This document shows, piece after piece, positions 20,425 to 25,602 of a stretch of DNA of 53,587 nucleotides. The stretch is from an uncultured Granulosicoccus sp. (GTDB lineage Bacteria > Pseudomonadota > Gammaproteobacteria > Granulosicoccales > Granulosicoccaceae). The first letter of the stretch is position 1. Each line of letters starts with the position of its first letter. Both the position numbers and the translations under genes were made by a program. The stretch covers positions 1-53,587 of the forward strand of contig CALKLO010000079.1 of the NCBI GenBank assembly GCA_937991945.1, read 5' to 3'. A model generated the notes under the pieces. It had not been told where the DNA came from and did not search any database. It worked only from the letters and a program-made list of their open reading frames with translations.

Positions 20425-22081
20425 GCTGAGCACGTCCTCCTATGACTTTTTGAATAACAACAAATAGGATTAAACACAGGGCTAGCAATAAGCCTGCTGT
20501 GACTGCAGCTTCCTCAAGGCGATAGCTGCCCATGCGCTGATAGAGAAGCAAGGGTAGCGTGCGTACTCGCTCTGAACCAAACAATGCAATGGCGCTAAGA
20601 TCGCCTGCGGATAACGTGGTGGCGACGGCAACACTTAAACCAATAGGTTTACGCAGTTGCGGCCAATCAATAATTCTCCATCGGCTAAATCCTTGTATGC
20701 CAAGAGATTGCAGTAGTTTGTCATGTTGGTTTGCCGATTGAATAAACGGTCCATCGAGTATGCGCAAAATAAACGGTAATGCCATAAGGCTGTTTATGAT
20801 GACAACGAGTATCAGTGCAATAGAAAAAACATCGGCGTAGGGTCTTAGTAATAAGAATAGACCCGTGCCAAGTACCAAAGGGGGAAGGACTAAAATGATA
20901 TTGCCAGACAGTTGCAACCATTGCCCTGCTGTTTCGTAGTTCAAGCGAATGCGAAGATGTCTGGCGCTGCTAAGTAATCCTAACGCCAGTACTAACGAAA
21001 GCATTGCAGACGCCAATGCCACAATTACGGTATTGGTTAAGGCACCCACTGTTGTTGGATGCGTAAGTACCGATATAAATGTTGAGTTCAGTGATGAAAT
21101 CACTAGTGCTAAGAGTGGCGATAAAACAAAAATGGCGGCCAAGGCTATAATGCTATTGTGAGTGATGCGCCAGGTAAGCCCCGACCAGATGCTGCTCATC
21201 AAGTGTTGGTCGTGCAATGACTGAGAGTGTGTTGCTAACGGTGAATAAGCATTGAACGCCAGTGCCTCGTTCTGTTTGTTAAGTGTGCTTAATATCATTA
21301 GCACCAAACAGATTACAAGCTGCACGCTACCCAGTGCCACAGCAAGCGTTATATCAAAATCAAAACGCAACGCTTGGTAGATAGCTACTTCAATCGTTGT
21401 GGCTTTGGGGCCACCGCCAAGTGTCATAACAATAGCGAAGCTGGTAAAGCACAGCGTAAAAATAAGTAAGGCGAGGCTGGGTAGTTGTCCGCGTATTGCG
21501 GGCCACTCAATGAATCTAAAGACAGATGTAGGGCCTAAGCCAAGTTGTTTTGCTAAGCGCCAGTTTTCAGAAGGGATACCTTCTAAGTTGACTAATAATA
21601 TTCTGGCCGCCAGCGGCATGTTGAAAAACACATGCGCCACAAGAATGCCCGTTAGTCCATACAGAGACACCGATGGGATAGACAACACCGACAGTGCGCT
21701 GTTGAGCCATCCGGTTCTGCCAAAGACTGCAACAATGCCATAAATAGCCACAATGGTTGGAATAACCAAAGACAGGCTAAACACATTAACGATGAGAGAG
21801 CGGCCGAGGAATCGTGGCTTGTGCGATAAGGCCAATGCAACCGGCAAGGCAAGGGTTAATGCGAGTAACGTTGAGAGAGTCGCCTGTTTAAAGCTAAACC
21901 AAATGACTCGTTGTAAGTAAGTATTTCCAAACACCTGCTGCCAGTTAATGGCGCCAGCTTCTCGAAACATAGCCATTGCTGGCAGCAGTGTGCAGGCTAA
22001 TACGATGAGCAGTGCAAATGCACCGCTCATCCACCACGGCCAGTATCGAACGGGACCGATACGCTGGCGGGTGTCTGACAT
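20411..22081 (-). CDS. thiP: Thiamine ABC transporter permease
   Basis: About 556 residues, a fused double permease with two repeats of six hydrophobic helices. EAA-loop-like segments are visible at ENWRLAKQLGLGPTSVFRFIEWPAIRGQLPS in the first half and HDKLLQSLGIQGFSRWRIIDWPQLRKP in the second; here only their positions matter, near residues 190 and 460. The start is ATG 22081 (MSDTRQRIG), overlapping the thiB TAA in TAATG. An in-frame start at 22117 lies within thiB and is less likely. It forms the inner-membrane channel for thiamine. Confidence 0.9.
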   Translation of the reverse strand: MSDTRQRIGPVRYWPWWMSGAFALLIVLACTLLPAMAMFREAGAINWQQVFGNTYLQRVIWFSFKQATLSTLLALTLALPVALALSHKPRFLGRSLIVNVFSLSLVIPTIVAIYGIVAVFGRTGWLNSALSVLSIPSVSLYGLTGILVAHVFFNMPLAARILLVNLEGIPSENWRLAKQLGLGPTSVFRFIEWPAIRGQLPSLALLIFTLCFTSFAIVMTLGGGPKATTIEVAIYQALRFDFDITLAVALGSVQLVICLVLMILSTLNKQNEALAFNAYSPLATHSQSLHDQHLMSSIWSGLTWRITHNSIIALAAIFVLSPLLALVISSLNSTFISVLTHPTTVGALTNTVIVALASAMLSLVLALGLLSSARHLRIRLNYETAGQWLQLSGNIILVLPPLVLGTGLFLLLRPYADVFSIALILVVIINSLMALPFILRILDGPFIQSANQHDKLLQSLGIQGFSRWRIIDWPQLRKPIGLSVAVATTLSAGDLSAIALFGSERVRTLPLLLYQRMGSYRLEEAAVTAGLLLALCLILFVVIQKVIGGRAQHAHT

Positions 22082-23139
22082 TATTGAGTGGAGGCGTCCA
22101 ACCACTCGTCCACCCACTGCTTACGATTATCACGCACCTCTTCAGGGCTGAAAGAAAGTGTGCTGGCAGGCGTAATCAAACGGTTAAACGACTCTGGAAG
22201 CTCATCACCTAAGTCGATAACAGGAAACATGACATTGGTCAGCGGAAGGGCTGATTGAGCATCGTGGCTAACCAGGTAGTTTAGGAAGTCCTGCGCTAAC
22301 TCTTGATTAGGGGATCGCTTAAGAATAGCGGCAACTTCGACTTGAAGGTAATGACCTTCGTCAAACGCGGCAGCTTGGTAGCGCTCTGTTTCGTCAATTT
22401 CCATGTGGTAGCCAGGTGATGTGCTGTAGCTTAAAACCATTGGCGCCTCGCCATTGAGGAATAGTGAAAAGTACGCTTCACTCCAACCTTTTGTGACGGT
22501 TAAAATTCGTGGTTGAAGCGCTTTCCATTTGGCCGCTGCATCATCGCCGTACACCGACTTTAACCACAACATCAAGCCAAGTCCGGGTGTGCTCGTACGT
22601 GGATCTTGAATAATGATTTTCACATCATCAGGAGCGTTAATCAGTTCTTCAAAGCTTGTTGGTGGTGTAGCTAAGGCTTCTGTGTCATACACAAACGCGA
22701 AGTAGCCGTAGTCGAAAGGCACAAACGTTTTGGAGGTCCAGTCAATGGGCAAGCTCAATTTGCTGGTATCAACGCCAGACTCTGCAAGCAATCCGGTGTC
22801 TTGTGCAATAGCCATTAGGTTGGTGTCCAAGCCTAAAACTATGTCGGCTCGTGTGTTGTCGCCTTCGAGCTGTACACGGTTGATGATGCCTGCAGAACTA
22901 TCCAATGCGACAAATTCTACGGTGCAGTCACCACATTGCTCTTCAAAGCCTGCTTTGATAATTGGGCCGGGGCCCCATTCAGCAGTGAAGGATTCGTAGG
23001 TGTAGACGGTGAGGGTACGCTCAGCGGCTTGAGCGCTAAACAGGGATAGTGAGAGTGCAACACCCATTGTTAGTGCCACAGCGCCGAGAAGTCGGTGTGC
23101 GCTACGCGTTGTTGAGTGAGTTTTTAACCTGTGAATCAT
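22081..23139 (-). CDS. thiB: Thiamine ABC transporter substrate-binding protein
   Basis: About 352 residues. A signal peptide ends in AQAAE, followed by LTVYTYESFTAEWGPGP, typical of TbpA/ThiB. FVPFDYGYFAFVYD and KGWSEAYFSLFLNGEAPMVLSYSTSPGYH contain the aromatic and acidic residues that hold the thiamine rings and phosphate. ATG 23139 is chosen because AGGA stands 5 nt upstream; ATG 23145 overlaps that ribosome site and would add two residues. It is the first gene of thiBPQ and is preceded by a TPP riboswitch. Confidence 0.92.
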   Translation of the reverse strand: MIHRLKTHSTTRSAHRLLGAVALTMGVALSLSLFSAQAAERTLTVYTYESFTAEWGPGPIIKAGFEEQCGDCTVEFVALDSSAGIINRVQLEGDNTRADIVLGLDTNLMAIAQDTGLLAESGVDTSKLSLPIDWTSKTFVPFDYGYFAFVYDTEALATPPTSFEELINAPDDVKIIIQDPRTSTPGLGLMLWLKSVYGDDAAAKWKALQPRILTVTKGWSEAYFSLFLNGEAPMVLSYSTSPGYHMEIDETERYQAAAFDEGHYLQVEVAAILKRSPNQELAQDFLNYLVSHDAQSALPLTNVMFPVIDLGDELPESFNRLITPASTLSFSPEEVRDNRKQWVDEWLDASTQ

Positions 23140-23193
23140 GATCATCCTGTGACTTGTAAGCCTGAAGATGATGACCCTACGAAAGGTATGTGA

Positions 23194-23294
23194 AACTCAA
23201 TCCCTACGCCGGTTCTAACCGGTTCAGGTTCTGCGGGTTGTGCCGGAAAAATAAAATTCCCGGACTCTCAGCCTTAGTGGCACCCCGTTGAGTC
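23194..23294 (-). promoter_or_regulatory. TPP (THI-box) riboswitch
   Basis: Read on the minus strand, it shows the full conserved core in order: ACGGGGTGCC, GGCTGAGAG, ACCCGCAGAACCTGA, a GGTTAGAACC hairpin, and CGTAGGGATTGAG. These match the P1-P5 elements of the TPP aptamer. It stands about 55 nt before the thiB start. Downstream, ATCATC (23172-23167) can pair with GATGAT (23146-23141), which includes part of the ribosome site and the first ATG, pointing to translational control. No intrinsic terminator is seen. Confidence 0.96.
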
Positions 23295-23435
23295 ATCATG
23301 TGTACGCAGTTTTTCAACCGCGACGTTAGTGTGGGGTTAATTTCACCGATATGCAAGCGGGTGTCGGGACTGCGCAGCGTCGTTAATGCTTGGTCGTGTA
23401 GTCAATGCCTCGTAATGTGACGCACTCGAATACCA

Positions 23436-24420: not shown

Positions 24421-24852
24421 ATGAGTGATCAGTCTGTTTCAAGTCAAATGATGTCGCCGACAGAGGCTTGGGAGTTATTGCAAGCCGACCCCAGCGTAAC
24501 GCTAATAGATGTGCGCTCCGATATGGAATTCCTCATGATCGGCCATCCCAAAGGCGCCGTTAATGTGCCTTTGATAGATGCGCCGGATTGGACGGTTAAT
24601 GCAGGCTTTGTGGCTAATGTTAGGAAAGCCCTATTAGGTCGGCTAGCGGCAAAGAATCGACAAACCAACCGTGTCTTGCTTATTTGTCGAAGTGGTAACC
24701 GTTCAGAGCAGTCGGCTGAACTCCTGCATGCCGAAGGGTTAAGCGATATCGCCATTATTGAGGGCGGGTTTGAAGGGCCTCTCGATGAGCATCATCAACG
24801 AAATACCGTTGCGGGGTGGCGTTTTGAAGGATTGCCTTGGGAGCAGTGTTGA
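24421..24852 (+). CDS. Rhodanese-like sulfurtransferase
   Basis: 143 residues forming one rhodanese domain. TLIDVRSDMEFLMIGHPKGAVNVP and the active-site loop CRSGNRS (89-95, catalytic Cys89) are clear. Single-domain forms move sulfane sulfur in the cytoplasm. Residues 101-125 (LSDIAIIEGGFEGPLDEHHQR) match the usual C-terminal part. No signal peptide. It is monocistronic; a TTGACG hexamer at about 24372 may be its -35. Confidence 0.87.
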   Translation: MSDQSVSSQMMSPTEAWELLQADPSVTLIDVRSDMEFLMIGHPKGAVNVPLIDAPDWTVNAGFVANVRKALLGRLAAKNRQTNRVLLICRSGNRSEQSAELLHAEGLSDIAIIEGGFEGPLDEHHQRNTVAGWRFEGLPWEQC

Positions 24853-24870
24853 GAGCTTGACCCTAGCCAG

Positions 24871-25046
24871 ACAATAAAAGAGCCCGGCATCCCTGCCGGG
24901 CTGAACCATCCTGGTTCTTTAGGTTGATGCGTTCATCAAATGATCAACTCGTCCGTTGAGTCAAACGTCCCTGTTGATTAACATCGTCCTTGATACATCC
25001 CTGTGTGCGGTTGTCCTTAACCACGCAGTTATTATTGTCCTGACAG
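24871..25046 (-). ncRNA. Candidate Csr/Rsm-type regulatory sRNA
   Basis: On the minus strand this gene-free stretch has eight GGA motifs, at plus positions 25038, 25014, 24998, 24987, 24968, 24952, 24909 and 24890, most in the form CAGGA/AAGGA/CAGGGA. Several sit in hairpin loops: GAACC-AGGAT-GGTTC (24903-24917), TCAAC-GGACGA-GTTGA (24944-24959), a six-pair stem around AAGGAC (25007-25024), and the terminator loop GGGA. The last stem but one contains a G-U pair that would be C-A on the plus strand, favouring minus transcription. The presumed 5' end GTCAGGACA resembles that of RsmY. Such RNAs sequester CsrA/RsmA. The 5' end is uncertain (about 25045-25090). Confidence 0.8.
24872..24902 (-). 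terminator. Intrinsic terminator of the candidate sRNA
   Basis: On the minus strand a perfect 9-bp GC-rich stem AGCCCGGCA/TGCCGGGCT with loop GGGA is followed by CTTTTATT. It can also serve the plus-strand rhodanese gene weakly, but the T-rich side is on the minus strand. Confidence 0.8.
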
Positions 25047-25152: not shown

Positions 25153-25602
25153 ATGATTGCACTCATACAACGCGTTACCGAGGCTTCAGTCTCCATTGCG
25201 GGTCAGAAAACGGCTGGTATAGGCTCAGGTTTGCTGGCGCTAATTGGTGTTGAGAAATCAGACACTGAGGCGCTTGCGAGTCAGCTAGCCGATAAAATTC
25301 TCACCTACCGCGTGTTTGCTGATGAGGCGGGGAAAATGAACCTGGACGTACAGGCCGCAGGTGGGCAGTTGCTGTTGGTGCCGCAATTTACGCTGGTCGC
25401 TGATACTCGAAAAGGCCGTCGCCCCGGATTTTCCTCAGGAGCAACACCCGAGCAGGGGGCCGAATTGTTCGATAGTTTGGTAAAGGTCGTGTCTGCACGA
25501 GACATCGTCCTCGGAACAGGGACTTTTGGGGCAGATATGCAGGTGTCGCTAGTCAACGACGGGCCAGTGACATTTTGGCTGCAGGTTGGAGTTCAGTCCT
25601 AG
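25153..25602 (+). CDS. dtd: D-aminoacyl-tRNA deacylase
   Basis: 149 residues, the standard size of [18 protein letters not shown], the [23 protein letters not shown] active-site stretch (QFT motif) and the Gly-cisPro motif in NDGPVTFWL (about 136-144) are all present. It removes D-amino acids from mischarged tRNA. The residue before QFT is Pro where many homologues have Ser. It lies downstream of the sRNA locus on the opposite strand; the sRNA promoter must lie in the 100 bp before this gene. Confidence 0.93.

Follow-up and report, generated by a model that had tools for sequence, protein, structure and literature searches.

A predicted GacA-activated, CsrA-sequestering small RNA of a new sequence family in Granulosicoccus

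Known CsrA-sequestering RNAs and the Granulosicoccus locus

The closest described systems are the RsmZ, RsmY and RsmX RNAs of Pseudomonas, which resemble the RNA reported here in size class, repeated GGA hairpin loops and an intrinsic terminator, and which have an upstream GacA site as is proposed here too. That site is given as TGTAAG-N6-CTTACA and lies at -75 in the case of rsmY and at -196 in that of rsmZ (PMC4950607). CsrB and CsrC of Escherichia coli work on the same principle and are credited with 22 and 14 GGA, respectively (PMC11882849), versus seven in our RNA. On the protein side, the SELEX consensus for CsrA is given as RUACARGGAUGU (PMC7652899), and an ANGGAX hexaloop has been proposed as the high-affinity form (PMC4005645). 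Going by their descriptions, two further systems are comparable: CsrR2 of Alcanivorax dieselolei, again a Csr-type sRNA that is predicted to stand alone, from a marine, non-model bacterium, and that has six unpaired GGA and a promoter of its own (PMC9788540), and Pf1, Pf2 and Pf3 of Pseudoalteromonas fuliginea, of which Pf2 and Pf3 were detected through GGA repeats, promoter and terminator (PMC11882849). The descriptions also set them apart: Pf1, Pf2 and Pf3 are listed with 25, 21 and 9 GGA (PMC11882849), CsrR2 adjoins a ferredoxin gene and rsmZ adjoins fdxA (PMC9788540), whereas the RNA considered here lies beside dtd. A further difference from the Pseudomonas RNAs is a set of three upstream boxes, 22 bp apart, in its family.

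In a search of open-licence papers we found no report of Granulosicoccus together with CsrA or with "small RNA". Here we analyze a 53,587-nt stretch of DNA from an uncultured Granulosicoccus sp. (contig CALKLO010000079.1; the window), one intergenic gap of which very probably encodes a GacA-activated sRNA that sequesters CsrA in the manner of a CsrB/RsmZ-type sponge: it would be transcribed under GacA control in response to a signal, bind CsrA and titrate it. The computed evidence comprises the anatomy of the gene, its conservation with compensatory changes, boxes at fixed offsets upstream of its relatives, and a genome that holds csrA and a GacA-like gene. The sequence family is new, while the kind of regulator is well known.

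The initial annotation had presented the RNA as undescribed, and the Rfam covariance search that it had proposed with the CsrB, CsrC, RsmX, RsmY and RsmZ models is consistent with this: no family reached its gathering score on the sRNA, and tested in this way it is not a member of a named Rfam family. PrrB_RsmZ (RF00166) scores 12.5 bits over the whole model (gathering score 44; E 6.9). CsrB, CsrC, RsmX and RsmY are absent both from the five Rfam matches to the stretch up to E 10 and from the 16 Rfam matches in 20 loci including that of the window. Run on the whole genome, the Rfam RsmZ model returned two partial matches (13.1 and 12.8 bits, E > 2), which were rejected, 12 of 14 control genomes being matched too.

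Anatomy of the RNA gene

The covariance model R1 matches positions 24875-25027 with 151 bits, its sole match in the organism's own genome at E 10. Together with a conserved -10 box and a terminator, this match delimits a gene for a predicted transcript of about 150 nt on the minus strand (24873-25025), the 5' end being placed by the -10 box and the 3' end by the terminator. The -10 box reads AATAAT (25036-25031) and is GATAAT or GATACT in most relatives; given its conservation, the RNA would start near 25025 (25025-25023). Neither a -35 element upstream of the sRNA nor, by consensus scan, a sigma-70 promoter at the locus was found, which fits an activator-dependent promoter, even if it is not proof of one. 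The terminator, hairpin 8 (24902-24881), has the GGGA loop and the CTTTTATT tail (24880-24873) that had been recognized from the start. The proposal that GTCAGGACA (25044-25036) forms an RsmY-like start of the RNA was rejected: the stretch belongs to the promoter, is not kept in relatives and runs into the -10 box, so its likeness to RsmY is probably due to chance.

All eight minus-strand GGA claimed for 24871-25046 were located (25040-25038, 25016-25014, 25000-24998, 24989-24987, 24970-24968, 24954-24952, 24911-24909 and 24892-24890). Since the first of these precedes the conserved -10 box, the RNA itself has seven rather than the eight originally ascribed to it. The plain GGA count is only weakly enriched (8, where dinucleotide shuffles average 5.2; p 0.066), and the A[N]GGA motif lies well above chance (10 overlapping matches vs 2.6 in dinucleotide shuffles, p 0.0002). 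The locus is the maximum of A(N)GGA density in the whole window, and every 176-nt segment with at least six non-overlapping A[N]GGA overlaps it when both strands of the window are scanned throughout in 5-base steps.

Comparative analysis resolves the RNA into eight hairpins, seven with a GGA loop and one without, all on the minus strand. Hairpin 1 (25024-25007) presents a loop AAGGAC; the G-U pair noted earlier in its stem is real (U-G in the RNA) and is U-A in 10 of 11 aligned copies. Site 2, ACACAGGGAUGU (25006-24995), forms the small hairpin ACAGGGAUGU and agrees with the SELEX consensus given above (PMC7652899) at 11 of 12 positions, a point of likeness to CsrB and CsrC. Hairpin 3 (24994-24983, hexaloop AAGGAC) and hairpin 4 (24975-24964, hexaloop AGGGAC) both show the ANGGAX form. 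Hairpin 5 (24964-24944, loop AACGGAC) has the best covariation among close relatives, hairpin 6 (24939-24924) is without GGA and strongly conserved in close relatives, and hairpin 7 (24917-24903) carries the loop AGGAU ahead of the terminator. In the window, the TCAAC/GTTGA pairing previously drawn around 24952 could form, but the relatives favor the helix around ACUC/GAGU (24961-24947), in which both sides changed in 4/6 pairs in an alignment that was not fitted to the structure. The stretch folds more stably than expected (z -4.0; none of 200 dinucleotide shuffles equally stable). When the window RNA is folded alone to minimum energy, hairpins 4 and 5 do not form as drawn in the comparative structure, and only four of the seven GGA are fully unpaired, a number reached by 2 of 500 shuffles.

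Covariation was assessed on two kinds of alignment. RNAalifold, applied to a first MAFFT alignment of 13 sequences, gave 19 pairs, in none of which both partners had changed. Rows L041 and L043, the most divergent two, were then dropped, MAFFT being judged to have misplaced both of them as well as the terminator; a 37-pair structure was named by hand after this removal, and the pair count on the remaining 11 copies was made after that choice. In these 11 unfitted copies 94.3% of cells are paired, falling to 25-44% when partners are slid by 1-3 columns. Six of the 37 pairs change on both sides (19 of 500 shuffles reach six), there are 19 further pair types (reached by 36 of 500), and the covariation (0.164 vs 0.109) is reached by none of 500. 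In the alignment A5, in which 27 matches were fitted to the model, two-sided changes are seen in 31 of 37 pairs; this fitting biases the count toward the structure, and L142, a probable chance match, is among the rows. GGA is kept in most close copies while the stems change. Conserved GGA loops and covarying stems in related genomes, which had been named in advance as part of the test of the assignment, were thus looked for and found; they support the prediction of an undescribed Csr/Rsm-type sRNA that titrates CsrA.

GacA-like boxes upstream of the RNA

Three GacA-site-like boxes lie upstream on the minus strand, at offsets counted from the model start at 25027: box 1 (25119-25102, offset -92), box 2 (25097-25080, -70) and box 3 (25075-25058, -48), the weakest of the three. 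Taken in the window alone, box 1 agrees at 8 of 12 positions, which is not significant, and the box score does not exceed chance, being reached by 889 of 2000 shuffles. Searched across the genome, the box 1 pattern occurs exactly only once, at the sRNA locus; when one mismatch is tolerated it gives two forward and two reverse matches, vs three and three for the reversed control.

For 22 copies, taken from the 27 model-aligned matches, each of 131 upstream offsets was also scored for the GacA site, the profile excluding the tandem copies L130:1234-1373 and L129:1778-1926 as well as L140, L141 and L142. Here the mean score peaks at -92 (6.45 of 12), -70 (5.95) and -48 (5.05), the mean over offsets being 3.15 (sd 0.66), which makes these the top three of all 131; being related, the 22 copies are not independent. 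The same three offsets lead in the subset of 14 more divergent loci. As the 22-bp spacing amounts to about two helical turns, the boxes would lie on one face of the DNA.

The Csr and Gac components of the genome and a predicted mechanism

The Csr/Rsm-type reading gains further support from the presence of both csrA genes and a GacA-like regulator in the genome. Three csrA genes score above curated cut-offs. One of them follows an ORF that looks by eye like aspartokinase, as has also been reported for Alcanivorax (PMC9788540); the product of this csrA, the best of the three, is identical to the solved chain 1vpz_A at 50 of 56 aligned residues by hand count. Among these paralogues (L118, L119 and L120) the third is the most diverged. 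A LuxR-type response regulator is encoded directly upstream of uvrC, and its best NCBIfam model is UvrY/SirA/GacA (198.8 bits, under the cut-off of 280). For the cognate kinase, sCache_4, used to look for BarA, had no match in the genome at E 1, and the hybrid-kinase model NF008318 had 14 matches, none above its cut-off; hence no BarA/GacS kinase is named.

In the mechanism that we propose, a phosphorylated GacA/UvrY-type regulator would occupy as many as three boxes arranged in tandem at 22-bp intervals and activate a promoter that has a -10 box and is without a recognizable -35 element. The resulting transcript of about 150 nt would fold into eight small hairpins, seven with a GGA loop, each of which may dock one RNA-binding pocket of a CsrA dimer. 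Once made, the sRNA would pull CsrA away from its mRNA targets and so relieve their repression. It is the probable RNA arm of a Gac/Csr circuit for a family in which a search of open-licence papers showed none described. Such a mechanism is textbook knowledge; direct tests are possible for the three phased boxes and for the conserved GGA-less hairpin.

Relatives within the family

A DNA search of 57 genomes returned nine matches outside the organism's own genome (E <= 8e-7), all in the same genus. Eight of these loci have dtd and the rhodanese gene, and the ninth (L011) has dtd and an acyltransferase gene. Across twelve gap sequences from 11 loci the upstream boxes, -10 box, hairpins and terminator are kept, with the exception of the RNA of L030. 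In the rhodanese-dtd gap of that genome (G003; L030 and L044) the upstream boxes are kept, and the RNA is much diverged, though GGA-rich by eye; R1 finds no match there at E 0.01.

At E 1, R1 matches 24 of the 48 family genomes and none of the other 24, with chance-like matches underlying three of the 24 (G007, G065 and G068). The chance-like matches are L142 and L149 (coding, Hsp70-like by eye), L143 and L144; L143, L144 and L149 were excluded from the input of the fitted alignment, along with the overlapping loci L145, L146 and L150. At E 0.01, the R2 model, built from 22 matches with the promoter sequence left out, has matches in 22 of the order's 48 genomes and leaves 26 without a match. 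Some genomes hold several copies: R1 finds three in a row in G016 (L129), two in a row in G005 (L130) and two on different contigs in both G021 and G006, and R2 finds two each in G035 and G001. By eye, the last copy in the L129 and L130 rows is without upstream boxes and may be either co-transcribed or decaying. Diverged RNAs with boxes and GGA hairpins were also seen at L136 (G027), L148 (G006), L158 and L170 (G035) and L171 (G001), and may represent a second type of Csr sRNA. In the window's own genome R1, R2 and R3 give no second sRNA locus, though a diverged copy may have escaped them.

Matches beyond the family and alternative readings

Sampled across the class, R2 matches 11 of 274 genomes at E 0.001: two of the same genus and nine of other families. 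Six of these nine (L160, L162, L163, L164, L166 and L168) have a GacA-type box of at least 10/12 within 200 bp upstream, as against an expectation of 0.003 per locus from 68 other loci; for any one locus at most 23 of 2000 shuffles reach the score. At L161, L165 and L167 no upstream box reaches 10/12. None of the Rfam Csr/Rsm families appears at these nine places at E 1, so that covariance models find such RNAs where Rfam reports none. Thus, features of the window's family pick out apparent GacA-driven Csr sRNAs elsewhere; common descent with the window RNA is not proved thereby. A wider model, R3 (46 of 369 genomes at E 0.01), was set aside as drifting, and no claim about the window uses it; of the 19 loci newly fetched with it, four have a GacA box of at least 10/12, and the GGA count is six or more in 13 and between 0 and 5 in the remaining six (L187-L192).

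A GGA-less AATCACC, mostly as UCAAUCACC, precedes the last pre-terminator hairpin at L160, L163, L164, L166, L175, L178, L180, L181 and L182. Counting L193, where it sits inside a terminator, 10 of the 28 extra-family matches contain AATCACC, vs 0.27 expected from other loci; as some share a genus, these loci are not all independent. We raise, tentatively and with more doubt than confidence, the idea that short CsrA sponges driven by GacA form a broad group across many gammaproteobacterial families that Rfam does not see, the window RNA being one of its branches. Its members would share, ahead of the last pre-terminator GGA hairpin, an element without GGA and with a role other than CsrA binding, represented here by hairpin 6 and elsewhere by UCAAUCACC; in the window's family a three-box, 22-bp-phased operator would drive the RNA.

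Sequences without GGA also speak for a base-pairing sRNA, possibly Hfq-dependent, in which conserved parts such as hairpin 6 and its flank would pair with mRNAs while CsrA binding would be secondary or regulate the RNA itself: hairpin 6 is among the best-conserved parts in close relatives in spite of lacking GGA, AATCACC recurs outside the family at the frequency just given, and a U-rich tail ends the terminator. We regard this as improbable, because GGA occupies seven of the eight loops and is retained in most close copies as the stems change, and because upstream GacA-type boxes are, as the published accounts have it, a mark of CsrA sponges.

The genomic setting bears on a second alternative to a CsrA-sequestering sRNA. 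On the plus strand the gap is flanked by a rhodanese-domain gene (24421-24852; Pfam PF00581, 60.2 bits), convergent with the sRNA, and by dtd, encoding a D-aminoacyl-tRNA deacylase (25153-25602; TIGR00256, 181.4 bits), divergent from it; beyond these lie a lipid A acyltransferase gene on the rhodanese side and hisB on the dtd side. In a scan of named genomes with a rhodanese alignment, the best 8 of the best 80 loci are labeled Granulosicoccus, and dtd is present in 12 of these 80, all labeled Granulosicoccus or Granulosicoccaceae. The steady company of dtd, present in 24 of the 30 listed R1 match loci, is what would be expected if the stretch acted in cis on dtd or on the rhodanese gene, e.g. 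as a leader or 3' UTR structure with no separate RNA. Such an element is very unlikely: both genes are encoded on one strand, whereas the GGA, the -10 box and the T-run terminator occupy the other, and match loci without dtd exist that have upstream boxes (L136 and L148).

The description of the stretch as gene-free held in that no gene was found at 24871-25046, although a mechanical 56-codon ORF on the minus strand (24739-24909) overlaps the 3' end of the sRNA. This overlap and the marginal GGA count would speak for a GGA-rich stretch arisen by chance, or for a coding remnant, that yields no RNA, a reading that is scarcely credible in view of the homologues, the compensatory changes, the -10 box, the terminator and the one- and two-base length changes among copies, by which no reading frame is kept. 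Elsewhere in the window, the sole Rfam match at gathering score is a TPP riboswitch (23184-23297, minus strand, 65.5 bits), which precedes a minus-strand ORF (22081-23145) that resembles a solute-binding protein by eye.
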